Source of the DNA: Gammaproteobacteria bacterium
Lineage (GTDB): Bacteria; Pseudomonadota; Gammaproteobacteria; Xanthomonadales; SZUA-36
Length of the DNA stretch: 64,000 nucleotides
Direction: 5' to 3'
NCBI GenBank assembly: GCA_021772915.1
Contig: JAJFLB010000054.1
Span: forward strand, 1 to 64,000
Below, in pieces: positions 839-15,650 of the stretch. The notes beneath the pieces are model-generated. The model ran no database searches. It was not told where the DNA came from and saw only the letters and a program-made list of their open reading frames with translations. The translations under genes and the position numbers were made by a program. The first letter of the stretch is position 1. Each line of letters begins with the position of its first letter.

Positions 839-1702
839 CTAAATCCTTCTTTTGCGAACCCCCAACAAGCCCATCATCATGAGCAATACCAACAGTGTGC
901 CGGTTCCCCACACGCCAACCGTGGGAACCGGTTCCGCTGGGCTCCCGCCGATGACAGCATTCGCGCCACCGCCAATGATTACGTTTCGACCGGTGCCGTC
1001 GGTTGCCAGCACGGACAAACTGCCGAGCGAACCGGAAAAACTGCTGTGACAGGGTCCGGCACTTACATCGGCGTTGCTGACACCTGGAAACGCAGCCACC
1101 CCTGCTGTAGTCAGCGTCACTGGTGTTGAACAGCCAGAACTTTCGATAAGACCGGGTATTAACACACTCAGCCAGCCGTAGGCGGTTGTGCCAGAGCCAT
1201 GTGCAAGTACACCACCACCTGAAGCGACGAACGCAGCAATCGCCGCCGCATTGGCAGTCAGTGCTACGCCTTCAGCAGCAACAAGATCATTTGCTGCCCC
1301 CGTGCCCACGATATGGAGCATCTTGGGATTAATGGCTCCGGACGCAAGGTTGGCAAAAAAAGTGGTGATTGCCGCAGCCCCATCATGGTAGGTCACCGTT
1401 TTGCCAAGGGTAACGCCTACCCAGTGCATGGCAGCCCCTGCATTGCCGGAGGTGGCGGTGGAGTCCGTAGCGCCCAGCACCGCGATGCCGGTGGCGCCTG
1501 GCCGCGTCACACCGGCTAGGATGCCGCCGGTGGCATTTTCGATGTACTTCCACCCAAGCAAGTTAACCCCACCTACACGCGAGCCGTGATCGGTAAGATC
1601 ATCTCCACCCAAGATCAAAGGGCCGGCGTAGGTCAAACTTCCCATGACTAAACCAGCCAAGACGACCAGGCCAACCAAAACTTTCCTGCTTATATTTCCC
1701 AT
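839..1702 (-). CDS. Secreted IPTL-CTERM-type sorted protein
   Basis: A 287-residue protein of unknown function. I start it at the ATG at 1702, which has a purine-rich GGGAGAGA ribosome site. A longer frame reaches 1921, but its N-terminal part is Arg/Cys-rich and not protein-like. It has a signal peptide (residues about 5-28, ending ..LTYAGP) and a small-residue-rich Gly/Ala/Thr middle. The tail has a VPTVGVWGTG motif, a hydrophobic helix and final RKRR, the layout of the IPTL-CTERM sorting signal of Proteobacteria. Such tails are processed by an exosortase-like system and usually mark surface or matrix proteins. There is no sorting enzyme in the window. It lies downstream of, and on the same strand as, the microcompartment operon, but 339 bp away, so I infer no functional link. 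Confidence 0.7.
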   Translation of the reverse strand: MGNISRKVLVGLVVLAGLVMGSLTYAGPLILGGDDLTDHGSRVGGVNLLGWKYIENATGGILAGVTRPGATGIAVLGATDSTATSGNAGAAMHWVGVTLGKTVTYHDGAAAITTFFANLASGAINPKMLHIVGTGAANDLVAAEGVALTANAAAIAAFVASGGGVLAHGSGTTAYGWLSVLIPGLIESSGCSTPVTLTTAGVAAFPGVSNADVSAGPCHSSFSGSLGSLSVLATDGTGRNVIIGGGANAVIGGSPAEPVPTVGVWGTGTLLVLLMMMGLLGVRKRRI

Positions 1703-2041
1703 CCTACTATCTCTCCCATAGCATCTACGCAGGCGCACTATCCCTCTACGCAGACATTTCCAACAACGCCCCCAGCGCGCTTGACAAACCCAAACGAAAG
1801 CGTAATTGTAGCATATACTGCATATTCCACTTTGGCTTACTCTTTTGGTGGCATGAACGGCGCTGAGGGTCGCTAAATGCATTCTGGTTAGGCTTGCCCG
1901 GTTGAATGTAACAAACCTCAATACCGCTCATTCAGAATGTTCGGCGTACGGAACAGTCACCCAGGAAATGGCACCAGCATCAGGCAACAACTCAGTGGCT
2001 GTAGCGAATCTGGTGTAATCGGTGATTTCGAAACTCTTTAG
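1703..2041. other. Intergenic, no gene seen
   Basis: The space between the secreted IPTL-tailed protein and the last microcompartment gene. It carries the promoter region expected for the IPTL gene. I see no clear terminator hairpin for the microcompartment operon and no conserved small frame. Confidence 0.4.
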
Positions 2042-2317
2042 TCAGCTAGACTCGAACTCGACTTCGTCGACAATTCCGACGACCAGCGAACGCACCGGTG
2101 CGCTGGCGTCATCGAGTATTTGCCGGGCTCCGCTGCCTTCATCGAGGATCAGAACCGTCTCACCCTTGCCGGCACCGATCGCATCCATCGCTATGAGATA
2201 ACCACCCGCTGGTTCGCCGGCATGGTCAAGCCGCTCGGCGAGGAGCAGTTTGCGACCATTGATTATGGGGTGATGGATGGTCGAGACAACGCTGCCAGTG
2301 ATGCGGGCAAGGATCAT
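2042..2317 (-). CDS. BMC-P shell vertex protein (EutN/CcmL family), copy 1
   Basis: A 91-residue EutN/CcmL-family protein. These form pentamers that cap the twelve vertices of a microcompartment shell. The sequence opens with MILARITGSVVST, the usual first strand, and carries the family's central AIGAGKGETVLILDEGSGAR segment. It ends with IVDEVEF, the usual C-terminal strand. Its ATG overlaps the stop of the gene before it (TGATG), so the two are translationally coupled. It is the last gene of the nine-gene operon. The window has three non-identical BMC-P paralogues, as reported for the Haliangium-type shell; what each contributes cannot be read from sequence. Confidence 0.92.
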   Translation of the reverse strand: MILARITGSVVSTIHHPIINGRKLLLAERLDHAGEPAGGYLIAMDAIGAGKGETVLILDEGSGARQILDDASAPVRSLVVGIVDEVEFESS

Positions 2318-2604
2318 CAGAGAAGGTCCTTCGGATGATAGTTTCTCACTTCATCAACCAACCCGATGATGGCATCATCGACCGGAACGAACCACGGATC
2401 GAGTGCAAGTGCAGCCTCGCGGCTGGCCACCCAATAGATCATTTGACCGGGTCCCGCCATACGGGTGCCGTCGGCACAAACGAGCGGCTCACCATCGGAC
2501 TTACCCTCACGGTCGAGTGGCTGGACCCACAGTAGCGGCGTGGCGGACAACTCGTCCACCAATATCGCCGGAACCACGGTCCCGATTACGCGTCCCAGGA
2601 GCAT
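2317..2604 (-). CDS. BMC-P shell vertex protein (EutN/CcmL family), copy 2
   Basis: A 95-residue pentameric vertex protein of the EutN/CcmL family. It starts MLLGRVIGTVVP and ends IIGLVDEVRNYH, as the family does. The central glycine-rich loop is less canonical (AGPGQMIYWVASREAAL) than in the other two copies, so it may be a specialised vertex. The ATG at 2604 has a strong GAGGAGG site five bases upstream and lies inside the end of the BMC-T gene (18-base overlap). Its stop overlaps the start of the next BMC-P. Confidence 0.9.
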   Translation of the reverse strand: MLLGRVIGTVVPAILVDELSATPLLWVQPLDREGKSDGEPLVCADGTRMAGPGQMIYWVASREAALALDPWFVPVDDAIIGLVDEVRNYHPKDLL

Positions 2605-3206
2605 GCAACCTCCTCGGGGTATTCAGCTCCGGAGGGCTCAACCGCCGGACACATACCAAAACGTGTACCTGAATCAAGTAGAGAACGCAGGTCAGGATCG
2701 AGTCGCGGCAGAAGTGTCCGGGCGAGAAGCTGGTCACCGGCCCGATCTGCGCAGATTCCAAGTGCAGTTTCGGCATCGGTCAGCTTGGCACTCATCAAGG
2801 CCAGCGCGTGACCACCCAGGTCATCACCCAAACGAACCTCACAGAGTGTAACGGGGGTGCTCTTGACGGCTGCATCCACGGCGGCCAATAGCGCGGGCGA
2901 AGAGCGTGTTTCGACCACTGCCAGGGCGTCGCCGGCCAGTTCCAGGCGCGTTCCGAGAACCGCGTCATGTAGGTGCGGGTGAACATCTCCCAGGAATACG
3001 CTGCCACTCAAACACCCCTCGGTCTTGCCCAGTTTCACCCCCGCCGCATATGCCTCCTGGGTGCTGGCGACACTTCCTCCGACAAGCACCAGGAATCGGC
3101 CCGGATGGATAGTTCCACAACGCAGTAATGCGATGGGTGAGTGCTTAACCATAAGGTCACTCGCCAGCACACCGGTGGCAATGGTTTCGAATTCCAGTAA
3201 CGCCAT
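2586..3206 (-). CDS. BMC-T tandem-domain shell protein, copy 1
   Basis: About 206 residues with two BMC folds in tandem (roughly 1-90 and 95-185). Such proteins assemble as pseudohexameric trimers that form shell facets and often carry the larger, gated pores. It begins MALLEFETIATGVLASDLMVK, matching the first strand and helix of BMC domains; the second domain has VTLCEVRLGDDLGGHALALM. I prefer the ATG at 3206 over an in-frame GTG at 3230 because it matches the domain start. The C-terminal 25 residues hold two cysteines and are an extension beyond the fold. It follows the aldehyde dehydrogenase by about 30 bases. Confidence 0.9.
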   Translation of the reverse strand: MALLEFETIATGVLASDLMVKHSPIALLRCGTIHPGRFLVLVGGSVASTQEAYAAGVKLGKTEGCLSGSVFLGDVHPHLHDAVLGTRLELAGDALAVVETRSSPALLAAVDAAVKSTPVTLCEVRLGDDLGGHALALMSAKLTDAETALGICADRAGDQLLARTLLPRLDPDLRSLLDSGTRFGMCPAVEPSGAEYPEEVACSWDA

Positions 3207-3238
3207 GGCCCCGTGTCGCCGCTTCTGCACCGTGCGCC

Positions 3239-4699
3239 TCAGACGATTCGGAAGTGGTCGACCAGGACGCAGCGTCGCAACCGACTGAAAGCGACCGGCC
3301 CGGTAAGACCCTCACCGGTGGGGCTGGCAATGGTAAAACTCGTGTGGCCTTCCCCACCCTCGCCAAGACCGGCGAAAAATGGTCCGTTCTTGGTAAAGAT
3401 ACTGGTGTTGATGGTGCGCGCCATGCGACTCAGTGCATCGATATCACGCGAGTACATCCCCGCCGAGTGACCGAAGCCATGCTCCACTTTCTTGGCCAGC
3501 TCAATGCCAGTATCGACATCGGGAACTGATGTAACCGGAAGTACCGGCATCATCTGCTCGGTCCAGTTCAGGGGGTGGTCATTCGATACTCGCGCAACCA
3601 GAAGTGGGGGGTCACCCGTATATGAAATGCCGGCCCTTGCCAGGATTTCGCCCGCATTCTTGCCGATGAGATCCTTCTCTACCACCGCACGCCGCCGTGG
3701 CCCGCGCTGTTCATTGAAAATCGCCTGCTCCACCCGGTTGAGTTCCCCTTCCGTGAGCAGGTAGGCTCCGTGTTGCCCCATTTGCTGCAACAACTCCCCG
3801 ACGATGCTTTCAACTGCGATGACCTCCTTTTCGTCAACGCACACGATGTTGTTGTCAAACGAGGCACCCGCGATGATGCTACGGGCAGCATGTTCAAGGT
3901 CAGCCGTGGCATCGACCACCACCGGTGGATTCCCCGGGCCTGCGCAGATAGCTCGCTTGCCACTCGTCATTGCCTGGCGCACCACTCCACTGCCCCCGGT
4001 CACAGCGAGGAGACGTACCCCTTCATGGCCCATGAGTGCCTGCGCCGATTCAATGGTGGGCTCGGCGACGGCGGTTACCAGGTTGGCCGGACCACCACCC
4101 CGGATGATCGCGGCGTGCAGGAGACGTATATTGGCCATGGAGCACTCACGGGCATTGGGGTGCACGTTAAAGACAATACTGTTGCCCGCCGCCAGCATGG
4201 CGATCGTGTTACAAATGATGGTGGAGGTCGGGTTGGTCGTCGGCGTAATGGCACCGATCACACCATAGGGTGCGTATTCGGTTAGTGTCAGTCCGTTGTC
4301 ACCGGTAATAGCTTGTGGTGTGAGTACTTCCGTTCCCGAGGTCTTCCTCGTGACCAGGCGATTCTTGATGACCTTGTGCTCAACTCGACCCAGGCCAGTT
4401 TCGCTATGTGCGGACCGGGCCAGTTCCTCGCCATGCTCAAGCATCGACTCACGGATAGAAGCAATGATCTTCCGTCGCCCTTCGAGCGACATGCCGTCCA
4501 GTTCCCTGAAAGCGGCACCCGCCGCCTCAACAGCGTCGTCAACCGTGGCAAAAACCCCTTCGCCCAGTACCAGCCGGGGTGCAATGACCGGCGCCCTGCG
4601 CGGCACGGTTATTGAGGAATTTGCAACCGATGCACCCGAGAGACGTTGGGCAAGACGTGTGGCAATGATGTCTACCTGCGCGTCACTGATTCGCATCAT
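3239..4699 (-). CDS. CoA-acylating aldehyde dehydrogenase of the microcompartment (PduP/EutE type)
   Basis: A 486-residue enzyme converting an aldehyde plus CoA and NAD+ to acyl-CoA; with DeoC upstream the natural substrate is acetaldehyde. It has the PduP/EutE features: TPTTNPTSTIICN, GGSGVV, GPGNPPVVVD and the catalytic Cys287 in DNNIVCVDEKE. Residues 3-20 (ISDAQVDIIATRLAQRL) form an amphipathic helix joined by a Ser/Ala/Pro-rich linker (21-40) to the enzyme, which is what encapsulation peptides of PduP-like cargo look like. Its start overlaps the stop of the preceding BMC-P gene (ATGA). It is the signature enzyme of the metabolosome. Confidence 0.93.
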   Translation of the reverse strand: MMRISDAQVDIIATRLAQRLSGASVANSSITVPRRAPVIAPRLVLGEGVFATVDDAVEAAGAAFRELDGMSLEGRRKIIASIRESMLEHGEELARSAHSETGLGRVEHKVIKNRLVTRKTSGTEVLTPQAITGDNGLTLTEYAPYGVIGAITPTTNPTSTIICNTIAMLAAGNSIVFNVHPNARECSMANIRLLHAAIIRGGGPANLVTAVAEPTIESAQALMGHEGVRLLAVTGGSGVVRQAMTSGKRAICAGPGNPPVVVDATADLEHAARSIIAGASFDNNIVCVDEKEVIAVESIVGELLQQMGQHGAYLLTEGELNRVEQAIFNEQRGPRRRAVVEKDLIGKNAGEILARAGISYTGDPPLLVARVSNDHPLNWTEQMMPVLPVTSVPDVDTGIELAKKVEHGFGHSAGMYSRDIDALSRMARTINTSIFTKNGPFFAGLGEGGEGHTSFTIASPTGEGLTGPVAFSRLRRCVLVDHFRIV

Positions 4700-4998
4700 G
4701 CGTCAGACTCACCTTTGCGATACTTTTCGTCGCCTTCGATTTCCCAGCTGTCAACAATCGCCATGACGACTGCGTCAACCGGTTTATTGTCGGTGCGTTC
4801 GGTTTGGCGGGCAGAAGAGCCACTGGCGAAGAGCACCATTTCACCCACCCCGGCACCGACGGCGTCTACCGCCACCACCGAACCGTTTGCAGGCTTGTTG
4901 TCGTGATCCCAGAGTCCCAGCATCAGGAATCTCAACCCACCCAACTTGGCGTCCTTCTCGGTGGCCACTACGGTGCCGAGCACTTTCGCGAGTTTCAT
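4696..4998 (-). CDS. BMC-P shell vertex protein (EutN/CcmL family), copy 3
   Basis: 100 residues, a standard EutN/CcmL pentamer protein: MKLAKVLGTVVATEKDAKL at the start, VAVDAVGAGVGEMVLFASGSSAR in the middle and VVMAIVDSWEIEG at the end. It looks the most canonical of the three vertex paralogues. A good AGAGGA site precedes the ATG at 4998. It sits between the BMC-H and aldehyde dehydrogenase genes and overlaps the latter by four bases. Confidence 0.93.
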   Translation of the reverse strand: MKLAKVLGTVVATEKDAKLGGLRFLMLGLWDHDNKPANGSVVAVDAVGAGVGEMVLFASGSSARQTERTDNKPVDAVVMAIVDSWEIEGDEKYRKGESDA

Positions 4999-5020
4999 AG
5001 CAGAGTCCTCTCCAGGACCA

Positions 5021-5317
5021 CTATTTCTTCGCCGAATCGGGACCGCGGCCCAGAGGGATTGTCACATCCACCCCGTTGTGAGGACGGGCAATCACATGCA
5101 CCGCAACCACGTCACCAACACGGGCACCGGCGACTCGTCCGGCATCACAAGCCGCCCTGACGGCAGCAACATCACCCCGCACAACTGCAGTTGTATAGCC
5201 ACCGCCCGTTTTTTCGTAACTGACAAACTCGACCTTGGCCGCCTTGACCATAGCATCGGCCGCCTCCACCATGGCCGGAAAGCTCCGGCATTCGATCATT
5301 CCTAATGCTTCTGACAT
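5021..5317 (-). CDS. BMC-H hexameric shell protein
   Basis: 98 residues, the single-domain BMC protein that tiles the shell facets as hexamers and is normally the most abundant shell protein. It reads SEALGMIECRSFPAMVEAADAMVKAA, then the pore-loop region EKTGGGYTTAVVRGDVAAVRAA, then the usual VGDVVAVHVIARP strand. AGGAGCAAGGTA precedes the ATG. It is the only BMC-H gene of the operon and is preceded by a long hairpin (5362-5406), which may serve to raise its yield relative to its neighbours. Confidence 0.95.
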   Translation of the reverse strand: MSEALGMIECRSFPAMVEAADAMVKAAKVEFVSYEKTGGGYTTAVVRGDVAAVRAACDAGRVAGARVGDVVAVHVIARPHNGVDVTIPLGRGPDSAKK

Positions 5318-5361
5318 TACCTTGCTCCTATGAAATCGGGCTTTTGGACCCGGTTAAACTG

Positions 5362-5406
5362 GTGTAGTGTATCGAGTAGATATACGTTCTACTCGATACA
5401 TTACAC
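5362..5406 (-). promoter_or_regulatory. Long intercistronic hairpin between BMC-T and BMC-H
   Basis: Two 19-base arms (5362-5380 and 5388-5406) are complementary at 18 of 19 positions, the exception being a G-T pair, around a seven-base loop. The hairpin starts directly after the BMC-T stop and ends 44 bases before the BMC-H start. It is not followed by a T-run on the coding strand, so it does not look like an intrinsic terminator. A processing or mRNA-stabilising structure that favours the BMC-H message is the likeliest role (inference). Confidence 0.75.
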
Positions 5407-6036
5407 TTATGTTTTCTTCTGTTTCGTCTTGCCCGTTACCGCATTGATGGCCTGTGTTGCCGCCTCCTGGGCAACCACCACATCCCGTTCCTCACCGCCG
5501 ATGTAAACTCGTCCGTAACTCCCCACGGCGCGTACTTCGAGAATATTGATATCCGCTGCCTTTTCCGCCTCGTTGGCAGCTAACGCGGCGTAAGCCGCCG
5601 GCTCGACTTCGAGTACGAAAAGTGTTTGACCCGCAAGAATCATGTTGCCGTGACGGAAGCGGTTGATCAGCATGGTCTGGGTGTCTTCGAGGTGGCGTAC
5701 CACCTGGTTGGCAACGACCCTTGGTTTGTGACGGTCCTTTTCCTCCAGCTCCAGAGAATCAAGAATTGCCTGCCCGGCCTGGCGAACGTCTGCCTGGCTC
5801 TCGGAATGTAATTCGAGCATCCCGTAGTGCCGCTCAACGATTTGCATTCCTGCCGTGACGTCCGTTGACTTGAGTGCAACATCGAGGATCTGGTTGATTG
5901 CCATACCGGGGGCGATCTCGACGAAAAGACTCGCCTGCCCCACTTTGGGTAGGTAACCCTTGGAGATCGTTGCCTGAAAAGAGGCAAATTGCGGCTGCAG
6001 TGAGTCAAGAATAACGTAAGCTCTCAGATCGACCAT
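5407..6036 (-). CDS. BMC-T tandem-domain shell protein, copy 2
   Basis: 209 residues, two BMC-like domains with a divergent first half (VDLRAYVILDSLQPQFASFQ) and a clearer second half (AAADINILEVRAVGSYGRVYIGG-type ending, then ERDVVVAQEAATQAI). Tandem-domain trimers of this kind form facet tiles, and some stack as double layers with gated pores; which kind this is cannot be told here. A GAGGAG site precedes the ATG at 6036. It follows the RpiB-DeoC fusion by 12 bases. The lysine-rich C-terminus (GKTKQKKT) is an exposed tail. Confidence 0.85.
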   Translation of the reverse strand: MVDLRAYVILDSLQPQFASFQATISKGYLPKVGQASLFVEIAPGMAINQILDVALKSTDVTAGMQIVERHYGMLELHSESQADVRQAGQAILDSLELEEKDRHKPRVVANQVVRHLEDTQTMLINRFRHGNMILAGQTLFVLEVEPAAYAALAANEAEKAADINILEVRAVGSYGRVYIGGEERDVVVAQEAATQAINAVTGKTKQKKT

Positions 6037-6048
6037 CGATAAAACTCC

Positions 6049-7362
6049 TCAAGCACTCATGCTTGTCAATTTTGCTTCCTGCACAATACCAATGCTGGCA
6101 CTCGCGCCCAGGCGGGTCGCGCCTGCCTCAATCATGGCCCTGGCGTCGCTGTAGGAACTGATGCCACCGGAAGCCTTTACCTCCATACCTGCACCACGAA
6201 CAACCTCTGCCATCAGTGCCACGTCACTCACGGTTGCACCACCGGTCGAAAACCCGGTTGACGTCTTCACAAAGTTGGCACGGGCGGTGCGCGCAAGCTC
6301 TGATGCACGTCGCTTCTCTTCATCGGTAAGTAGCACTGTCTCCAAAATCACCTTGCATACCGCGTTACCATCAACGCAGTCCTCCACCACGGTCCGGATG
6401 TCCCGCAACACGAGCGCGTCATCCCCGCTTTTAAGCGCCCCGATGTTGATCACCATATCGATTTCTCGAGCGCCGTTGCGAATGGCCCGCCGTGCTTCCA
6501 TGGCCTTTATCGCGGGTTCATTGGCTCCAAGTGGGAACCCGACTACCGTGCAGGTCAGTACGTCACTGCCCCGCAACAACCTCGCCGCCAGTGACACCCA
6601 GGTCGGATTTACGCAAACCGAGCGGAAATTAAACTCGAGGGCCTCGGCACACAGTGTGCGGATTTGCTCCTCAGTACCATTGGGCTTGAGTAAGGTGTGA
6701 TCAATGTAGCGTGCCAGATCCCCGGGAATACTCCCCGGACTCTCTGCCGTGGCAGCACTGGTTAACCCCGTGGCACCGAGCCGGACGAACTCACGGGCGG
6801 TTTGGGGGTTGTCGCCAACAGAGTCACCGTCATGCTCAACGCTGGTCATCGGACCGATGATCTCGTGAAGACGGCTTACGACCCGCTCCAGGTCCTGTTC
6901 TGACAGACTGGAATCCGCGTTTTCCCCATCAAACATCGAAACTCTCTTCAGATGACGTGACTCGGTACATTCTGTGGCCAGCCAGGTGTCTATGATCTGC
7001 TCCGCCAATCCGGTGCCGATCCGCCCGGCACCCAGGGTCAGTACGTTTGCATCATTATGCTCTCGACTGCTGCGTGCACTCGACAAATCGTTGGCAAGCG
7101 CGGCCCTCACACCGGGTGTCTTGTTCGCGACCATGCATGAACCAATCCCCGCGCCGTCAATAATGATGCCGACATCAGCCCGACCCTCCGAAACCGCTTC
7201 CGCGACCGCGCGGGCAAATACCGGATAATCGGCAGCTTCACGAGATGAAGTTCCGAAATCCTCTACCTGGTGACCGGTCTTTCGCAGGTGCGCTGTCAAC
7301 ACGGCTTTCAGGTCAAAGCCACCGTGGTCGGCACCCAATGCAATTCTTCTTGGCGATGTCAT
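6049..7362 (-). CDS. RpiB-DeoC fusion: RpiB-like domain plus deoxyribose-phosphate aldolase
   Basis: 437 residues. Residues about 6-130 are an RpiB fold ([40 protein letters not shown]). The normal active-site CGTGIG is here DGAGIG, with Asp69 in place of the catalytic Cys and Ala for the conserved Thr. Residues about 217-430 are a complete class I DeoC aldolase: IDHTLLKPN, Asp302 in [10 protein letters not shown], Schiff-base Lys366 in NFVKTSTGF and Lys396 in EVKASGGI. DeoC cleaves 2-deoxyribose-5-phosphate to acetaldehyde and glyceraldehyde-3-phosphate. The linker holds an amphipathic helix (about 152-169, [17 protein letters not shown]) that resembles a cargo-targeting peptide. The ATG overlaps the regulator's stop (ATGA). 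RpiB and DeoC are both known from sugar-phosphate-utilising BMC loci; here they are one chain. Confidence 0.92.
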
Positions 7363-7718
7363 GTCCAAACCGCCGAATCATCACGTCGTATAGGACGTTG
7401 AGTGGGTCGCTTCACGGCTTGCTTCGTCTTTTTCTCTGGACTGAGTATGCGCTGCAGCTCCATCACGTAAAGCCTGAGTCTTTCACGTCCCAACTCGGCG
7501 ATACGGAATTCAGTAAGCGTACGCCGGCCCTTCATGACTTTGTTTATTTTGATATAACCTACATCTGCCAACTTGCGGGTCTGTACATGCAGATTGCCGT
7601 CTGACAGACTGGTTGCAGTCTTCATCTCCGTGAAGGAAACGGGTGCTCCCGGTACCAGCGTGGCCAGGATGCCAAGACGGCAGGGGGCGCTGATCATTTC
7701 GTCGAAATTGAAATTCAT
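7359..7718 (-). CDS. Winged-helix transcriptional regulator, first gene of the BMC operon
   Basis: About 119 residues. The N-terminal 85 residues form a small winged helix of the kind often annotated as 'winged helix DNA-binding domain' ([13 protein letters not shown], then [23 protein letters not shown] as the recognition helix region, then the wing [20 protein letters not shown]). It is followed by a dimerisation helix and a basic tail. I use the ATG at 7718; an in-frame TTG lies three codons earlier. As first gene it probably controls its own operon: two near-identical 19-bp sites flank its promoter. A relative, also with a 17-bp palindrome upstream, is at 42536-42850. Confidence 0.85.
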
Positions 7719-8612: not shown

Positions 8613-9425
8613 TTATGAGTCGATATCCAACTCGAGGTCTATGCGGTACTCAAACCGCTGGGGATGATACAGCACGCGAAGATAATCCACCGGGTAGCCC
8701 TCCGAGTGACGGTTTTCAAACGCCAGACGGGTAAGACTGAGTAGCGCCGATCCACGCTCAACACCCAGGGCCCCCGCAGCCTCGGCATTTGCTGAACAGG
8801 CGGTCAATGACTGTTTGATAAACGCTACTTTCAGTCCCTTGCTGCGGAAATAGGACATCCGTGGTGTGTGTTCGAACACACGAATGTCTTCAGGCAGCTC
8901 AACGGACCTTGTCCAGCTGCTGTAGTAGCCGAACCGGAGTTGATCGTACTGTCTGACCCTCCGCAGTTGCAAAATCCTCTGGTCTTCATCCAGTCCAAGC
9001 AATCGCTGGACCTTGCGTGGTGCCCGTTTCATCCGACACTGCAAGACCCTAGCAGTGGAGTTTTGCCCAATTGATTCAATCTCCTGTAACAACCCCACCA
9101 TGGGTGCATACATGGGCTCAGATAAGGCCTCATGCGTAACATGGGTACCACGCCCCCGGTGCCGCTCAACCAGCCCCTCCCGGGCCAACTCATCCAGCGC
9201 GCGTTTGCTGGTGATTCTGGAAACCCCAAAATCTGCGGACAACTGGCCTTCGGTCGGGAGTTGAGATCCATCGGCGAAACTGCCGTCAATAATACCGCTT
9301 TTGAGAAGACTGTATAGCTGAAAATACAACGGCGTTGGCAGGTCCTTGGATAGTGCCCTGGACTGTTTTTGACTGAAAATTGAGTGTGCTTCGATCACTT
9401 TTTGCATATTTACACGGTCAGACAT
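8613..9425 (-). CDS. GntR-family regulator (HutC/FarR type with UTRA domain)
   Basis: 270 residues. A GntR winged helix lies at about residues 28-97 (PLYFQLYSLLKSGIIDGSF, GSQLPTEGQLSADFGVSRITSKRALDELAREG), followed by a UTRA effector domain (about 115-265). This is the HutC/FarR group, whose UTRA pocket binds a small metabolite and releases the repressor from DNA. It is divergent from the CoA-transferase operon and shares its 98-bp promoter region, which holds two strong palindromes. The start at 9425 is kept; an ATG at 9407 is an alternative, and neither has a good ribosome site. It probably controls the catabolic operon and itself. Confidence 0.88.
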   Translation of the reverse strand: MSDRVNMQKVIEAHSIFSQKQSRALSKDLPTPLYFQLYSLLKSGIIDGSFADGSQLPTEGQLSADFGVSRITSKRALDELAREGLVERHRGRGTHVTHEALSEPMYAPMVGLLQEIESIGQNSTARVLQCRMKRAPRKVQRLLGLDEDQRILQLRRVRQYDQLRFGYYSSWTRSVELPEDIRVFEHTPRMSYFRSKGLKVAFIKQSLTACSANAEAAGALGVERGSALLSLTRLAFENRHSEGYPVDYLRVLYHPQRFEYRIDLELDIDS

Positions 9426-9522: not shown

Positions 9523-10722
9523 ATGAGCAAGGCACTGGCCGGTATCCGGATTCTTGACCTGACCCACATGTTGTCCGGCCCATATGGCGCGATGATACTC
9601 GCGGACCTGGGCGCGGAATTAATCAAGGTCGAACCCCTGCAAGGCGAAGGCACACGCAAGTTAATGGCCAATGACCCCGGCAAATCCCTGGACGGGATGG
9701 GGGCTTATTACATCACTTTGAACCGCAACAAAAAGAGTGTCGCCCTGGATCTGAAGTCCGAAGAAGGGTTGGCGATTTTTTATGACCTCGTACGCGAATC
9801 TGATGTTGTTATCAGCAATTTTAGCGCCAGTGTACCCGCCCGCCTGAAGATTGACTATGAGAGTCTCAAGGAGGTCAACCCCGCCATTATTACCTGTACC
9901 GTCACCGGTTATGGCTCCAAGGGTCCCAGTGCTGATCGACCGGCATTTGACCAGGTCGCACAAGCTACCGGCGGTGGTATGTCCATTACCGGTCATGATG
10001 CTCGGCACCCGGTCCGCGCCGGCATCCCGATTGGGGACCTGGGTGGTGGAATGTTTGCGGTCATGGGTATCCAGGCTGCCCTGTTGGAAAGGCAGCGCAG
10101 CGGCCAGGGTCAGCACGTCGACATCTCCATGCTCGATTGCCAGATTTCCATGCTGAATTACATGGCAACGATGTACTTCCTTTCCGGCAATGATCCCCAA
10201 CCGATCGGCAACGCACATTTTTTTCACGTGCCGTATAACACTTACAAGACGACGACGGGCTATATCGTGATCGCAGTTATCACCGACAATTTCTGGGTCA
10301 ACCTCAAGCGGGTCGTGCAGGTTAAGGCATTTGAAAATAGCCATTACGATAGTCAACCGGGACGCTGGGAAAGCCGTGTCCTGATCAATGCAAAACTGAA
10401 CGAGGTGCTCGGTGAAAACAGTACGGAATACTGGCTGGAAAAACTAAAGGAACAGAAAATCCCGTGTGCACCAGTCAATCGCCTTAGTGAAGCGTTATCC
10501 GATGAACAGGTACTGCACCGCAATATGGTGGTTGAACTAAAACATCCCGATGGCAAGTCCACACGGGGACCAGGAAATCCGGTCAAGCTGTCACGCAATA
10601 ACGAAGAATCATTCAGCCCGGCGCCCAAACTTGGGCAGCACACGGACTCCGTACTGGCGCAATTACTTGAGTATGACCCGGAGCAAATATCCGCGCTCAA
10701 ACAGCAGGGGGTCATTGGCTGA
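9523..10722 (+). CDS. Class III CoA-transferase (CaiB/BaiF family)
   Basis: 399 residues, the usual length for the family. These interlocked dimers move CoA between carboxylic acids through an aspartyl thioester. It shows the family start GIRILDLTHMLSGPYGAMILADLGAELIK, the substrate loop VAQATGGGMSITG and the catalytic Asp in PIGDLGGGMFAVMG (about residue 172). It ends next to the following gene with a TGATG overlap. As first gene of a GntR-controlled catabolic operon it probably activates an imported or hydrolysed acid as its CoA ester for the HMG-CoA-lyase-type enzyme behind it. The substrate is not identifiable from sequence. Confidence 0.9.
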   Translation: MSKALAGIRILDLTHMLSGPYGAMILADLGAELIKVEPLQGEGTRKLMANDPGKSLDGMGAYYITLNRNKKSVALDLKSEEGLAIFYDLVRESDVVISNFSASVPARLKIDYESLKEVNPAIITCTVTGYGSKGPSADRPAFDQVAQATGGGMSITGHDARHPVRAGIPIGDLGGGMFAVMGIQAALLERQRSGQGQHVDISMLDCQISMLNYMATMYFLSGNDPQPIGNAHFFHVPYNTYKTTTGYIVIAVITDNFWVNLKRVVQVKAFENSHYDSQPGRWESRVLINAKLNEVLGENSTEYWLEKLKEQKIPCAPVNRLSEALSDEQVLHRNMVVELKHPDGKSTRGPGNPVKLSRNNEESFSPAPKLGQHTDSVLAQLLEYDPEQISALKQQGVIG

Positions 10723-11663
10723 TGGTCGAAAAAGTCACCATCAATGACGTGGGCCCTCGCGACGGCTTGCAAAACCAACCGGTAAGCTTATCGGTCGAAC
10801 AGCGTGTGGAGCTCATTGGCGCGTTGCTTGGAGCAGGTGTAGGCCATATCGAGGTCGGTAGTTTTGTGTCACCCAAAGCCGTACCGGCGATGGCTGGGAC
10901 CGATCATGTGCTGGCAGCACTGAATAACGGGCAGGAAAATGGCCAGGACGGTTTTTCGGTGCTGGTCCCCAACATGAAGGGCTACGAATTGGCCAGGGAT
11001 GCCGGGGCAAAATGTGTGGTCATGGTGCTGTATGGCACCGACGGCATGGCACAGGCCAATGTCAACATGAGCCGTTCTGACGCGGAGCGGGTCATGGAGC
11101 AAATATTGCGACAGGCTTCAGCCGATGGTGTACGTGTTCTGGGAACGATTTCCGTGTGCTGGGAGTGCCCATTCGACGGACCGGTTGATGCCGGTGTCAT
11201 TGCCGGCATTACCCACAGACTCCTGGATCTCGGTGCCGACCAGGTGACGCTGGCCGACACCATTGGAGCTGCCAGTCCGCAGCGCGTTCGTGATTTAACG
11301 TCTATGCTCGTAAATAAGCATGGGGCAAAACGCCTGGCCTGTCACTTTCATGACACCCGTGCGCTCGGGCTGGCCAATGTGTTTGCTGCGCTGGAGTCCG
11401 GTATCCGGTTTTTTGACGCCTCCATTGGTGGTCTTGGTGGTTGCCCGTTTGCACCGGGCGCATCCGGAAATGTCGCAACCGAGGATGTCGTCATGATGCT
11501 GGAGCAAATGGATTACGACACGGGTATTGATCTGCCGGAGCTGATGAATGCGTCACGACTGGCGGGGCGCCTGACCAATAATGCACCAGGTGGACGTGCA
11601 AAGATCTGGCTGGAGCGACATTTCAACAAAAACAGTGATGCGGGTAAACAAATACACACATGA
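10722..11663 (+). CDS. HMG-CoA lyase family enzyme (MvaB-like)
   Basis: 313 residues of the DRE-TIM metallolyase family. It has the HMG-CoA lyase landmarks: DVGPRDGLQNQ near the start, HFHDTRALGLAN for metal binding and the GLGGCPFAPGASGNVATED loop with the catalytic Cys. The reaction is retro-aldol cleavage of a 3-hydroxy-3-methylacyl-CoA to acetyl-CoA and an oxo product. With a CoA-transferase just upstream, the likely pathway is activation followed by cleavage of a branched hydroxy-acid; whether it is HMG itself is open. Translationally coupled to the CoA-transferase. Confidence 0.88.
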   Translation: MVEKVTINDVGPRDGLQNQPVSLSVEQRVELIGALLGAGVGHIEVGSFVSPKAVPAMAGTDHVLAALNNGQENGQDGFSVLVPNMKGYELARDAGAKCVVMVLYGTDGMAQANVNMSRSDAERVMEQILRQASADGVRVLGTISVCWECPFDGPVDAGVIAGITHRLLDLGADQVTLADTIGAASPQRVRDLTSMLVNKHGAKRLACHFHDTRALGLANVFAALESGIRFFDASIGGLGGCPFAPGASGNVATEDVVMMLEQMDYDTGIDLPELMNASRLAGRLTNNAPGGRAKIWLERHFNKNSDAGKQIHT

Positions 11664-11697
11664 ATCCCTGTCCGACTAATAGAAACTGGAGAGACCG

Positions 11698-13764
11698 ATG
11701 AGTTTTCGCCTGGGTGTAGATGTGGGCGGTACTTTCACCGACCTGCTGCTGATCAATGAAGACAGCGGTGAAACCTATACGGCAAAGGTGCCGTCAACGC
11801 CTGAAGATTCGTCCATCGGCGTATTAAATGGTGTCGCACGAATCTGTCAGGAGTCGGGCACGGACCCCAACTCAATCCACCGCGTCATGCACGGTACAAC
11901 GGTCGCCACCAACTCTGTCCTAACCGGCAAGGGTGCCAGGGTAGGTCTGCTGACCACGCGGGGTTTCAAGCAGGTGCTGCAGGTCGCACGTTCGTTTTGC
12001 CCGGGCGGCCTCGGCGGTTGGGTGAGTTATGTCAAAAAACCCCTGCTTGCCCCCCTGGAGCTGACCATAGAAGCTGACGAACGAATGGCAGCCGACGGCA
12101 GTGTGGTAAAGGCTCTCGACGAGGAAAACCTGCGCCTCGAATTGCAACAATTGAAAGACAAAGACCAGGTTGAGGCCTTAACCATATGTTTCATTAATGC
12201 CTATCTCAATGGTGCCCACGAAACCAGGGCCCGGGAGATCGCCGGTGAGGTTTTTGGTGACCTGCCTGTATCGATTTCCTCTGAAGTGGTCCCTGAAATG
12301 CAGGAATATGAGCGAACTGAGACCACCGTCGTCAACTCCTATGTTGCACCCGAAGTCGCAACCTATATTGGCAACCTGCAATCTTCACTTGAAGAGCAGA
12401 TGGGGGACGGCCTGCAATTATCCATTTTGCGCTCTGACGGAGGTCTCGCCTCATCACGCGCTGCGGCACAATCACCCGTTAACATGTTGATGTCCGGACC
12501 TGCCGGCGGCGTGGCCGGAGCCACCTGGTTTACCGGCCGTACCGGGTACCAGGATGTATTGACTTTTGACATGGGTGGTACCTCAACCGATGTCGCCCTG
12601 ATCCAGAAATCGAAGGCCCGGATTCGTCGCGAGACGCGAATCGGTGACGTTACAGTGCGCGCGCCGTCGGTGGATGTCCGCACCGTGGGTGCCGGCGGTG
12701 GTTCAATTGCATTTGTACCCGAATTGACCAAGGCCTTGCGGGTCGGGCCACAATCAGCGGGCGCCGTCCCGGGTCCGGCAGCGTATATGAAAGGTGGGAC
12801 GGAGCCCACGGTCTGTGACGCCAATGTGGTGCTGGGTTACCTGCCGTCTGACGTTCAGTTGGGCGGTGATATGGCAATTGATAAATCGGCTGCGGAAACC
12901 GCGGTTCAAAAAATTGCCGACGCGATTGGTATTGACCTGATGGAGGCCGCTGAAGGGATTATCAAAGTCGTCAACGAATCCATGTTTGGCGCGCTACGGC
13001 TGGTTTCGATCGAGCAGGGTTTTGATCCACGTGATTTTGCACTCGTCGCCTTTGGTGGCGCGGGACCCTTGCATGGAAATGCAATGGGCGAGCTGACTCA
13101 ATCCTGGCCGGTCATCATACCGCCCGGCCCCGGTGTGTTGTGTGCTTATGGAGAGGCAACAACCCGGGTGCAGGATGAGGCATCCCGCACCTACGTTAAA
13201 CGCGCGGATCAGCTGGAAGTGGATGAACTATTGCGTGACCTTGATGAGTTACGCGCCCGTGCCTCTGTGTCGCTCGATGCAGACGGTATTCCTGCACAGC
13301 AGCAGGAGGTGCACTACCAGGCCGATATTCGCTATGTAGGCCAGGCGTTCCAGATCAGTATGGAGTTCTCGGCTGACGACATCAGGACCAAGGGACTGGC
13401 TTTGCTGACCGAACGATTTGATACAGAGCACGAACAACTATTTACCTTTGCGCTGGGCAAAGACCACGAACTGGTGATGATCCGTGCCGTGGTTCGGGCC
13501 AGCTCCGCAAATATTGAAGAAATTGCGGTGGGGCGCGAGGGCGCTGACCTCGAGGACTGCAAGATTCATGCAACCCGCTTCTATCACAAGGGTGAGTGGC
13601 ACGATGCAACTATCTATGACCGCACGCCTTTGCATTCGGGGCTGGAGATACCGGGTCCGGCGATTGTCAGTGAAATGGACTCTACCACCGTCATTTTGCC
13701 GGGTTATATGGCCCGGGTGGATGCTGTCGGCAACCTGCTGATCAACCCAAAAGGAGCAGACTGA
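11698..13764 (+). CDS. HyuA-type hydantoinase/oxoprolinase/carboxylase subunit A
   Basis: 688 residues. An actin-like ATPase fold is seen in LGVDVGGTFTDLLLI, HGTTVATNSVLTGKGARVGLL, FDMGGTSTDVAL and GAGGGSIAFV, all typical of hydantoinase A. The family covers ATP-dependent hydantoinases, 5-oxoprolinase and the acetone/acetophenone carboxylases, and sequence alone does not separate these here. It is followed with a four-base overlap by HyuB, its usual partner. An isochorismatase-fold hydrolase after HyuB suggests opening of a cyclic imide or hydantoin and removal of the carbamoyl group, as in N-methylhydantoin/N-carbamoylsarcosine breakdown, but a carboxylase role stays possible. Good GGAGAG site before the ATG. 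Confidence 0.88.
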   Translation: MSFRLGVDVGGTFTDLLLINEDSGETYTAKVPSTPEDSSIGVLNGVARICQESGTDPNSIHRVMHGTTVATNSVLTGKGARVGLLTTRGFKQVLQVARSFCPGGLGGWVSYVKKPLLAPLELTIEADERMAADGSVVKALDEENLRLELQQLKDKDQVEALTICFINAYLNGAHETRAREIAGEVFGDLPVSISSEVVPEMQEYERTETTVVNSYVAPEVATYIGNLQSSLEEQMGDGLQLSILRSDGGLASSRAAAQSPVNMLMSGPAGGVAGATWFTGRTGYQDVLTFDMGGTSTDVALIQKSKARIRRETRIGDVTVRAPSVDVRTVGAGGGSIAFVPELTKALRVGPQSAGAVPGPAAYMKGGTEPTVCDANVVLGYLPSDVQLGGDMAIDKSAAETAVQKIADAIGIDLMEAAEGIIKVVNESMFGALRLVSIEQGFDPRDFALVAFGGAGPLHGNAMGELTQSWPVIIPPGPGVLCAYGEATTRVQDEASRTYVKRADQLEVDELLRDLDELRARASVSLDADGIPAQQQEVHYQADIRYVGQAFQISMEFSADDIRTKGLALLTERFDTEHEQLFTFALGKDHELVMIRAVVRASSANIEEIAVGREGADLEDCKIHATRFYHKGEWHDATIYDRTPLHSGLEIPGPAIVSEMDSTTVILPGYMARVDAVGNLLINPKGAD

Positions 13765-15650
13765 TGCCAGCCAGAATAATCGAGACCAACTCAACGCCTT
13801 TCCAACGTATTGAGGTCGATACGGTAAACGTTGACATCATCGAAAACGCCCTCCGCAATGCCCGCGAGGAAATGGACGCCGTACTGTTCCGCACGGCCAT
13901 GAGTCCGGGAATCCGGGAGCAGGGTGATTGCTTTCCCATGATTGCCAATCGCGACGGCAAGATGGTCGTGGGTCAGTTCGGGTCGTTCATTTACGGCTTC
14001 ATGGAGGCCTATGAAGGTGAGCTGGAAGAAGGCGATGTCATCCTGACCAACGATCCATACATGTGTAATGCAGCAGTTTCCCACCTGCCCGACTGGATCG
14101 TGCTCGTGCCTATTTTCAAGGATGGCAGGCACATGGCCTGGTCAGCAATGTTCGGGCACATGTCTGATAACGGTGGCATGGTACCAGGGTCGATCCCCAT
14201 TGAGGCTGAAACCATATTCCAGGAAGGGATCCGCATACCGCCTACAAAGCTGTACAAAAAAGGTGAACTGCAATCTGATTTGCTGGAGTTGATTCTGCAC
14301 AATGTGCGCACCTCGAACTGGAACCGATTTGATCTGAACGCACTGGTGGCCGCGTGTAACACTGCGGCAAGACGGTGTGTGGAAATGGCTGAGCGCTTTG
14401 GTGACGATATTTTCTATTCCACCATGGAAATCATGCTGGAACGAAACTACATGGCAATGAAGGCAATCATCGAGATGATCGTGCCGGAAGACCCGCGCGT
14501 GTTTGAAGATTACGTCTGCGACGATGGTGTCGGTAGGGGCCCCTACAAGATCCGCTGCAAACTCTGGCGGGAAGGATCGACCGCGATCTTCGACTTTGAG
14601 GGTACGGACCCGCAAGCGGCAAGCTCCATCAACTTTTACCTGAACGAAGACATGTTCAAAATGTTTTTCGGCTCATTCACCATCAACCTGATAGACCCGC
14701 AAATCCTGTTCAATGACGGTTTTTACGACCTGGTTGATGTGCGCATCCCACAGGGCACATTGCTCAAACCCAACTTCCCCGCGGCCCTGTCGGGCCGCAC
14801 CCATGTGTTGGGGAGAATTTTCGATGTGATGGGTGGTCTGCTTGGACAGAGCGCACCGGATGCAATGAACGCCGCCGGGTTTTCTGATTCACCTCACCTG
14901 TTTTTTTCTGGCTACGACCAACAGGGCGAATGGTTCCAGTTGTTTCAAATTGGCTTTGGCGGTATTCCAGGCCGGCCGGTTGGTGACGGGCCGGACGGTC
15001 ATTCCCTGTGGCCGGGCTTTACCAATGTCCCGAATGAGTTCATAGAAGCCTATTTCCCACTGCGGATTGAGAAATACGAAACCATCCCGGATTCAGGCGG
15101 GGCCGGACTCCACCGGGGCGGCAATGGCCTGACCGTGGCTTACCGTTTCCTGGTGGACGGTACAATCGCCATCCACGACGAGCGCTGGTTGACCTACCCA
15201 TGGGGTGTACGAGGCGGGCAGCCTGGTATGCGCTCAAGTAAACAACTGGTCAGGGTGGACGGTACCGAAACCTGGCTGGGAGCAAAATCCGACGGAATCC
15301 AGGTGAAGAAGGGAGATTTGCTGTACTTCAATACCTGGGGAGGTGGCGGCTGGGGTGATCCCTACGATCGAGATGCAGAACTCGTGCGCGCCGATGTTGC
15401 AGCCGGTCTGGTAAGTGCGCAGGGCGCGAAGCGCTATGGCGTCGTGATTGCCGACGATGGCTCTGTTGATGGGGCCGCGACCGACGCCTTGCGTGCCGAC
15501 CTGATCCAGGCACGAATGAATGAAACAGATGGTGAGGAACCTGCATTGTTTGATTTTGGTGGAGATATTGAAGATATCCTGGCCCGTTGCAAAGCAGAAA
15601 CCCACCTTGATCCGCCCCGCTCACCCACCTTTGCTGACCGCGCACTTTGA
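13764..15650 (+). CDS. HyuB-type hydantoinase/oxoprolinase/carboxylase subunit B
   Basis: 628 residues, partner of the HyuA upstream. Landmarks are the N-terminal NVDIIENALRNAREEMDAVLFRTAMSP, GDVILTNDPYMCNAAVSHLPDW with candidate metal or substrate ligands, GGAGLHRGGNG, and the C-terminal WGGGGWGDP. The family's usual 'NDPY.GGTHLPD' is NDPYMCNAAVSHLPD here, a small departure near the active site. It starts four bases before the HyuA stop and ends with TGATG into the next gene, so subunit stoichiometry is coupled. Substrate unknown. Confidence 0.88.
   Translation: MPARIIETNSTPFQRIEVDTVNVDIIENALRNAREEMDAVLFRTAMSPGIREQGDCFPMIANRDGKMVVGQFGSFIYGFMEAYEGELEEGDVILTNDPYMCNAAVSHLPDWIVLVPIFKDGRHMAWSAMFGHMSDNGGMVPGSIPIEAETIFQEGIRIPPTKLYKKGELQSDLLELILHNVRTSNWNRFDLNALVAACNTAARRCVEMAERFGDDIFYSTMEIMLERNYMAMKAIIEMIVPEDPRVFEDYVCDDGVGRGPYKIRCKLWREGSTAIFDFEGTDPQAASSINFYLNEDMFKMFFGSFTINLIDPQILFNDGFYDLVDVRIPQGTLLKPNFPAALSGRTHVLGRIFDVMGGLLGQSAPDAMNAAGFSDSPHLFFSGYDQQGEWFQLFQIGFGGIPGRPVGDGPDGHSLWPGFTNVPNEFIEAYFPLRIEKYETIPDSGGAGLHRGGNGLTVAYRFLVDGTIAIHDERWLTYPWGVRGGQPGMRSSKQLVRVDGTETWLGAKSDGIQVKKGDLLYFNTWGGGGWGDPYDRDAELVRADVAAGLVSAQGAKRYGVVIADDGSVDGAATDALRADLIQARMNETDGEEPALFDFGGDIEDILARCKAETHLDPPRSPTFADRAL

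Follow-up and report, generated by a model that had tools for sequence, protein, structure and literature searches.

An RpiB-DeoC fusion with an encapsulation-peptide-like helix in its linker and an altered isomerase site, encoded in a conserved sugar-phosphate-utilisation microcompartment operon

The stretch analysed here, which we call the window, comprises the first 64,000 nucleotides of contig JAJFLB010000054.1 (Gammaproteobacteria bacterium, order Xanthomonadales, assembly GCA_021772915.1), and near its start it carries nine genes that we identify from their sequences as a real and conserved sugar-phosphate-utilisation (SPU) bacterial microcompartment (BMC) operon, with RpiB and DeoC encoded as one chain. 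We consider it likely that this is a catabolic operon of the SPU type in which RpiB and DeoC would be packaged as cargo around one internal encapsulation peptide (EP), and that it would serve the use of deoxyribose-5-phosphate. The fusion is known in kind; what is added here is its breadth, a single internal targeting-like helix, and an altered isomerase site. All nine genes lie on the minus strand, from 7718 to 2042, abutting or overlapping one another (several overlaps amount to a few bases), and Pfam and NCBIfam models name them, in order, as a regulator, the RpiB-DeoC fusion, a CcmP-like BMC-T, BMC-H, BMC-P, a coenzyme A (CoA)-acylating aldehyde dehydrogenase, a PduT-like BMC-T, and two further BMC-P genes. 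This is the overlapping nine-gene operon that an earlier reading of the sequence by a model (the original prediction) had described, and its assignment to the SPU type holds likewise: a PF01791 aldolase and a PF02502 isomerase are present in the locus together with BMC-H, BMC-P and BMC-T shell genes and an aldehyde dehydrogenase. A genome-wide search for PF00936, the family of the BMC-H and BMC-T genes, found matches in the operon alone. The features of the fusion are as follows.

6049..7368, minus strand: RpiB-DeoC fusion, 439 aa, TTG start; LacAB_rpiB and DeoC in one frame
6928..7347, minus strand: RpiB domain, residues 8-147; PF02502, 169 bits
7150..7158, minus strand: changed active site, D71-G72-A73 where the aligned solved RpiBs have Cys-Gly-Thr
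6721..6927, minus strand: linker, residues 148-216; two helices in the AlphaFold model, with a block mean predicted local distance difference test score (pLDDT) of 39-69 (low to moderate confidence)
6856..6900, minus strand: EP-like amphipathic helix, residues 157-171, within the linker; AlphaFold helix, block pLDDT 62-69
6073..6720, minus strand: DeoC (2-deoxyribose-5-phosphate aldolase, DERA) domain, residues 217-432; TIGR00126, with D304, K368 and K398 motifs

The fusion has 439 codons with no stop between its two domains, and both halves are recognised by family models, with 270 bits for TIGR00126 deoC (cut-off 117), 161 bits for the RpiB model PRK05571 (cut-off 135) and 143 for TIGR01120 (cut-off 139). 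Structural comparison agrees for both domains, the AlphaFold model of the RpiB domain being close to 3he8 (template modelling (TM) score 0.92 by target) and the DeoC domain sharing 63% identity with the DERA 6d33 (TM 0.95 by target), such that each is placed in its family by profile and by fold alike. D304, K368 and K398 are presumably the catalytic residues of DeoC. The model of the whole fusion has a mean pLDDT of 84 and a predicted TM score of 0.53, and because of the latter value the placement of the domains relative to each other is undefined. The fusion is the sole RpiB-family match in its own genome, and a search of that genome with the fusion matched this place alone (four of the seven candidates being scored). 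A sequencing artefact is rejected by the recurrence of the fusion without a stop in other genomes, and the single chain of the original prediction is thus real.

Five other genomes of the order have the identical gene set and order as far as their contigs extend, and the operon is therefore neither a chance arrangement nor a sequencing artefact. The fusion is present from end to end in three of them and from residue 7 on in one (77-85% identity), and in the fifth its last third stands at a contig end with 87% identity. Its occurrence is patchy, since the CcmP-like BMC-T was found in 6 of 299 genomes of the order, our own included, and since in a sample of 398 genomes of the phylum the only both-domain match among those listed came from this genome, the next best being DeoC alone. 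In 396 genomes of the phylum to which locus L099 (titled Acidobacteria) belongs, at least seven have a both-domain match with no stop, and at least 13 further genomes have matches with one or two stops, which represent neighbouring genes in one frame; both phylum searches scored the best few candidates per genome, and their counts are lower bounds.

A wider search with an RpiB-plus-linker query (alignment A3, five fusions) against named genome contigs gave 506 confirmed loci, and the best 80 of these (L057-L136), a sample biased to close relatives, are the source of all counts out of 80 given here. RpiB and DeoC are fused in one open frame in 38 and RpiB is separate in another 38, including one (L126) with no DeoC within reach; the remaining four are cut by contig ends, L072, L078 and L118 inside RpiB and L080 inside the linker. 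By their record titles the fused loci belong to Gammaproteobacteria (Woeseiaceae, Lysobacterales and others), an alphaproteobacterial metagenome-assembled genome (MAG), Acidobacteriota, Verrucomicrobiota, Neomarinimicrobiota, Planctomycetota, Krumholzibacteriota, Eisenbacteria, a Myxococcales MAG, and MAGs titled Gemmatimonas and Fibrobacter, although the latter two loci (L065 and L071) are almost identical, which may point to wrong binning behind one of the titles. The complete arrangement RpiB-DeoC, BMC-Tdp, BMC-H, BMC-P, aldehyde dehydrogenase, BMC-Ts, BMC-P, BMC-P is seen in 28 of the 38 fused loci, 12 of which also have the regulator upstream (a relative of the regulator lies upstream of RpiB in 20/80 loci overall), and in four separate-gene loci (L113, L114, L129 and L135). 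Seven of the ten other fused loci reach a contig end, L107 has no Tdp match, L130 has two such matches, and L092 has no shell gene in its flanks.

A tree of RpiB plus DeoC, made by a quick method, unrooted, and containing 76 rows (the window and the 75 loci with both genes, the five without a DeoC match being left out), separates the 39 fused rows from the 37 separate ones by one branch with a support of 89, and thus by one change. This topology would fit either one fusion event with later spread between phyla or one splitting event. RpiB and DeoC have been reported to "occur as a fusion protein" in Marinimicrobia (Axen 2014, PMC4207490), and this report, the fused state of 38/80 relatives, and the tree together reject the idea that the fusion was newly formed in this genome. 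The statement of the original prediction that RpiB and DeoC are known from SPU loci as separate genes is accordingly not supported if it is taken to mean separate genes only, the fusion being both common and already described. A viral origin is likewise rejected, as a scan of viral contigs (IMG/VR) gave ten loci, each matching the DeoC part alone; these (L036-L045) encode a DeoC-like protein, and several seem to be copies of one another. Among plasmids, 802 records match, none of which reaches 80% query coverage at one place.

Encapsulation peptides are amphipathic helices of 15-20 residues at the N- or C-terminus of cargo proteins (Sutter 2021, PMC8217296), and it is because of its likeness to those peptides as presented in PMC8217296 and PMC12339742 that the linker helix is read as a targeting signal. 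The most amphipathic 14-mer of the window linker has a value that none of 300 shuffles attained; the helix looks like the one found at the N-terminus of stand-alone SPU DeoCs and is flanked in the model by low-confidence stretches. Helices were counted by a strict sequence pattern and compared with the expectation from shuffled sequences, the rule for RpiB N-termini counting leaders after an ATG only. An EP-like helix was found in 33 of the 38 fused linkers (1.2 expected) and in the N-terminal extension of 35 of the 37 separate DeoCs (2.6 expected). The RpiB N-terminus of the fused proteins has an EP-like leader in 0/38 (leader length 0-19), and stand-alone RpiBs have an N-terminal one in 11/38 by the same rule (0.6 expected; more by eye), with C-terminal tails of at most 17 residues (n=38). 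By hydrophobic moment, 34 of the 38 fused linkers exceed at least 90% of their own shuffles. That one signal would serve both enzymes, as originally predicted, is supported by the helix counts in linkers and RpiB leaders, with the linker helix as a putative internal targeting signal, and most simply the fusion would have arisen by in-frame joining of RpiB to the N-terminus of an EP-bearing DeoC, the signal thereby becoming internal.

Many of the separate DeoCs (L082, L085, L087, L102, L109 and others) have a cysteine-rich stretch after the EP-like helix, such as CAEGICVQTC in L082. It is also seen in Neomarinimicrobiota fusions (linkers L076, L079 and L083), is missing from the gammaproteobacterial ones, and is possibly a metal or Fe-S site. 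Some separate SPU RpiBs (L102, L109, L121, L134, L136 and others) have a longer N-terminal region in which a shared TPLA...R.I.LV-like stretch replaces the short targeting helix.

The RpiB domain has the fold, the phosphate-binding Arg and the ring-opening His in common with EcRpiB, TcRpiB, LdRpiB and MtRpiB, but it differs from the known enzymes in having Asp in place of Cys66/69 and Ala in place of Thr71, and shows neither the arrangement with Cys nor that of M. tuberculosis with Glu. The motif C-G-T-G of the three solved RpiBs aligned thus reads D-G-A-G in the window. In known RpiBs the Cys is the base that takes the C2 proton and the Thr moves a proton from O2 to O1, a C69S enzyme is inactive, and Glu75 stands in for the Cys in M. 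tuberculosis (PMC4783025), an arrangement that is an exception among known RpiBs (PMC3755991). With both the catalytic Cys and the proton-shuttling Thr replaced, the name "ribose-5-phosphate isomerase" is doubtful for this protein.

Asp occupies the position of the catalytic Cys in 80/80 loci; the search patterns behind these loci did not include the Asp71 position, and the scan began from the window's own RpiB. Of the 77 RpiB-family matches in forty genomes chosen from the 80, 40 have Asp; among the other 37 (Asp in 0/37) there are 35 with Cys and two with Gly, the latter two being similar to the M. tuberculosis type. The phylum sample supplied 18 RpiBs, every one of them with Cys. In the phylum of L099 RpiB was found in 25 of 30 loci fetched and has Asp in 25/25, four of these genomes (G707, G711, G718 and G726) being already among the 40. 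The groups can be told apart by columns 71 (D), 73 (A), 77 (S), 100 (N) and 111 (T), and the Ser at column 77 stands where the two M. tuberculosis-like sequences have Glu, such that neither the catalytic Cys nor a counterpart of Glu75 is found. An alignment of 84 Asp-type rows (the 80 loci and L053-L056, with L053 and L056, whose contigs equal those of L057 and L059 in length, probably the same as these) has Ala in place of the shuttle Thr in 83, and each of the 84 rows, wherever it includes the column in question, keeps D14, H15, D47-Y48-P49, H104, N105, R138, H139 and R142. No shell gene is seen in 15 of the 80 loci; PF00936 was found genome-wide in 11 of 12 examined (ten of the shell-less loci, with L106 and L117), the miss being L124, in a genome of 2.2 Mb. 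In this sample the Asp form of RpiB is thus closely tied to microcompartment genomes. Among the open-licence papers that our searches listed we recognised none that describes the Asp active site, or an internal targeting helix in RpiB-DeoC.

The other members of the operon are as follows.

7359..7718, minus strand: winged-helix regulator (HTH_34); Pfam PF13601, 63 bits; ATG at 7718
5407..6036, minus strand: BMC-T, CcmP-like; NF053796 CcmP 301 bits, under the cut-off of 340
5021..5317, minus strand: BMC-H; PF00936, 97 bits
4696..4998, minus strand: BMC-P (pentamer) 1; PF03319 (EutN_CcmL), 99 bits
3239..4699, minus strand: CoA-acylating aldehyde dehydrogenase (Aldedh); NCBIfam PRK15398 622 bits, cut-off 403
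4634..4699, minus strand: helix-like leader at the N-terminus of this dehydrogenase, MMRISDAQVDIIATRLAQRLSG; conserved in six aligned rows, the window among them, and followed by a variable stretch
2586..3230, minus strand: tandem BMC-T, PduT-like; two PF00936 stretches
2317..2604, minus strand: BMC-P 2; PF03319 (EutN_CcmL), 55 bits
2042..2317, minus strand: BMC-P 3; PF03319 (EutN_CcmL), 89 bits

For the regulator, the program-called open reading frame (ORF) reaches 7727 when a TTG start is taken, and the ATG at 7718 is preferred. The CcmP-like BMC-T has its best PDB matches in CcmP (5lsr/4ht5), followed by other BMC-T chains including HO-5816, and by resemblance is of the dimerising-trimer type; the natural PDB relatives of the PduT-like BMC-T are PduT chains and the shell protein 3pac, then 5dih. 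The best PDB match of BMC-H is HO-5815, ranked after an engineered tandem, and BMC-P 1 is closest to the BMC-P of 5v74; the BMC-H of Haliangium ochraceum (HO) and the BMC-P of 5v74, which we take to be the H. ochraceum shell, are thus the closest solved natural relatives of these two window proteins. The aldehyde dehydrogenase, for which the next-best models after PRK15398 are acetaldehyde-CoA dehydrogenases, is presumably of the EutE/PduP type, and its leader, conserved in an alignment with five relatives, is likely an EP. No RNA features were found in the window at gathering thresholds. Elsewhere in the window, an ORF at 839-1921 (minus strand) without a Pfam or NCBIfam match ends in a hydrophobic stretch and basic residues, presumably as in a PEP-CTERM-type surface protein, and at 9523-15650 (plus strand) genes for a class III CoA-transferase, an HMG-CoA-lyase-like protein, and hydantoinases A and B follow one another as a separate cluster, opposite to which lies the gene of a GntR/UTRA regulator (8613-9425, minus strand).

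Among described systems the operon is most readily compared with SPU loci, in which a PF02502 RpiB-like protein, a PF01791 DeoC, an aldehyde dehydrogenase and shell genes likewise share one locus (PMC4207490, PMC8217296), and of which seven subtypes, all with a PF01791 aldolase and a PF02502 isomerase, are recognised (Sutter 2021, PMC8217296). It differs from these in that the nearest named relatives of its genome are gammaproteobacterial MAGs, in that the genome has no PduL, and in the internal targeting helix and Asp/Ala active site, features absent from the available excerpts of PMC4207490 and PMC8217296. The microcompartment of H. ochraceum has three BMC-P genes and one BMC-H, the same as in the window (Axen 2014, PMC4207490); in some HO genomes the pfam01791 enzyme is located elsewhere (PMC8217296), whereas here RpiB and DeoC stand at the head of the operon as one chain.

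In the mechanism that we favour, deoxynucleosides would be split in the cytosol by DeoA and DeoD, and 2-deoxyribose-5-phosphate would pass into the shell, with the CcmP-like gated trimer as its possible entrance. The RpiB domain would then handle this sugar, perhaps opening its ring for DeoC, and the co-packaged dehydrogenase would turn acetaldehyde into acetyl-CoA, so that the aldehyde would be channelled and kept inside. Use of DNA-degradation products has been proposed for SPU compartments, whose aldehyde dehydrogenases group with acetaldehyde-processing ones (Sutter 2021, PMC8217296), and the proposal is repeated in PMC8156839. Genes for DeoD-type phosphorylases lie beside the operon in 6/80 loci by cluster assignment (L058, where the gene is downstream on the opposite strand, L061, L062, L063, L064 and L078), and the two tested, those of L061 and L063, both exceed the cut-off for deoD. 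In our own genome DeoA (thymidine phosphorylase) and DeoD, both over cut-off, are adjacent on another contig (L217, 4244-6341), where they adjoin ribonucleotide reductase and TSCPD-domain genes, and RpiB has a DeoR-like repressor gene upstream of it in five loci from Neomarinimicrobiota and in L080, which belongs to an unclassified marine MAG. In L060, L061, L063 and L064 the gene of a PfkB-like kinase for sugars or nucleosides is found downstream of or near the operon; that of L063 was scored and falls under all family cut-offs.

Several observations weigh against this account. No DeoB phosphopentomutase was found in our own genome (98% complete, 71 contigs), and DeoB is over cut-off in only 13 of 37 related genomes, whose completeness is not given (it is present in the gammaproteobacterial L058, L061, L063 and L064, and not in L057), which leaves a gap at the supply step from deoxyribose-1-phosphate to deoxyribose-5-phosphate. 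PduL (PF06130) was unmatched in our own genome, the controls E. coli and T. maritima being matched, such that the metabolosome core is incomplete, and either CoA would need another means of recycling or acetyl-CoA would have to be exported. The canonical catalytic Cys and Thr are missing from the RpiB domain. The DeoR-like gene of L080, the sole locus scored, has 363 bits, under the cut-off of 420. The linker helix is modelled at a pLDDT of only 62-69, the strict pattern finds no helix in five of the 38 fused linkers, and four (L076, L107, L112 and L130) fail the 90%-of-shuffles level of amphipathicity, and the branch between fused and separate forms (support 89, not starred) comes from a quick tree. 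The role in deoxyribose-5-phosphate use put forward in the original prediction is thus upheld as to its deoxynucleoside setting, with phosphorylase genes beside the operon in six relatives and elsewhere in our own genome, and is weakened by the missing DeoB and by the doubt that RpiB is an ordinary isomerase.

2-Deoxyribose-5-phosphate has no 2-hydroxyl, and on chemical grounds an aldose-ketose isomerase should be unable to act on it as it usually does. A tentative and rather unlikely extension of our account is that the SPU RpiB is a distinct paralogue that does not interconvert aldose and ketose and would open the furanose ring of 2-deoxyribose-5-phosphate, passing the free aldehyde to DeoC, the fusion then tethering ring-opener to aldolase around one internal targeting helix; on a sugar without a 2-hydroxyl the C2 base and the O1-O2 shuttle would be dispensable, and the ring-opening His and the phosphate pocket are kept. 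It is somewhat more plausible, though on balance still not probable, that the domain is a working isomerase which uses Asp71 as its base and takes ribose-5-phosphate or some other pentose phosphate as substrate, in a compartment that would handle both ribose and deoxyribose. The ring-opening His104 and His139, the phosphate-binding Arg138/Arg142 and Asp14/His15 are kept in all Asp-type sequences that include the column (roles by alignment, PMC4783025), and a carboxylate can serve as base, as does Glu75 of M. tuberculosis RpiB (PMC4783025, PMC3755991). Such an isomerase would, however, have lost the Thr that moves the proton between O1 and O2 as well (Ala in 83/84 rows), and RpiA is present in our own genome for the ribose-5-phosphate task. 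To our knowledge, ribulose-5-phosphate is not a substrate of DeoC, which also counts against it.

The replacement of both proton-transfer residues would suit a catalytically dead domain acting as a structural or ligand-sensing partner, but dead sites seldom keep one nearly fixed pair, here Asp and Ala, in ten or more phyla (by record label) while the remaining active-site residues stay tightly conserved, and we regard this as quite improbable. Finally, the true substrate may be another sugar phosphate and the DNA-debris account wrong, as the lack of DeoB in our own genome, its absence over cut-off in 24/37 relatives, and an RpiB domain unlike known isomerases might suggest; this we think unlikely, for the DeoC scores as DERA and nucleoside phosphorylases adjoin the operon in six relatives. 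Deoxyribose-5-phosphate use by a fusion carried into the shell by its linker helix thus remains the reading that we prefer.

SPU is one of the most prevalent microcompartment types (Sutter 2021, PMC8217296), and the role of its RpiB has been without a clear answer, since the usual isomerisation is not available to deoxyribose-5-phosphate. A fixed change of the active site that is absent from 37/37 other RpiBs in 40 genomes makes this role a direct matter for enzyme assay, and what the Asp-type RpiB does is the most testable point raised here. The fusion with its internal encapsulation-like helix would in addition represent a natural one-chain cargo of fixed ratio, which may find use in shell engineering.

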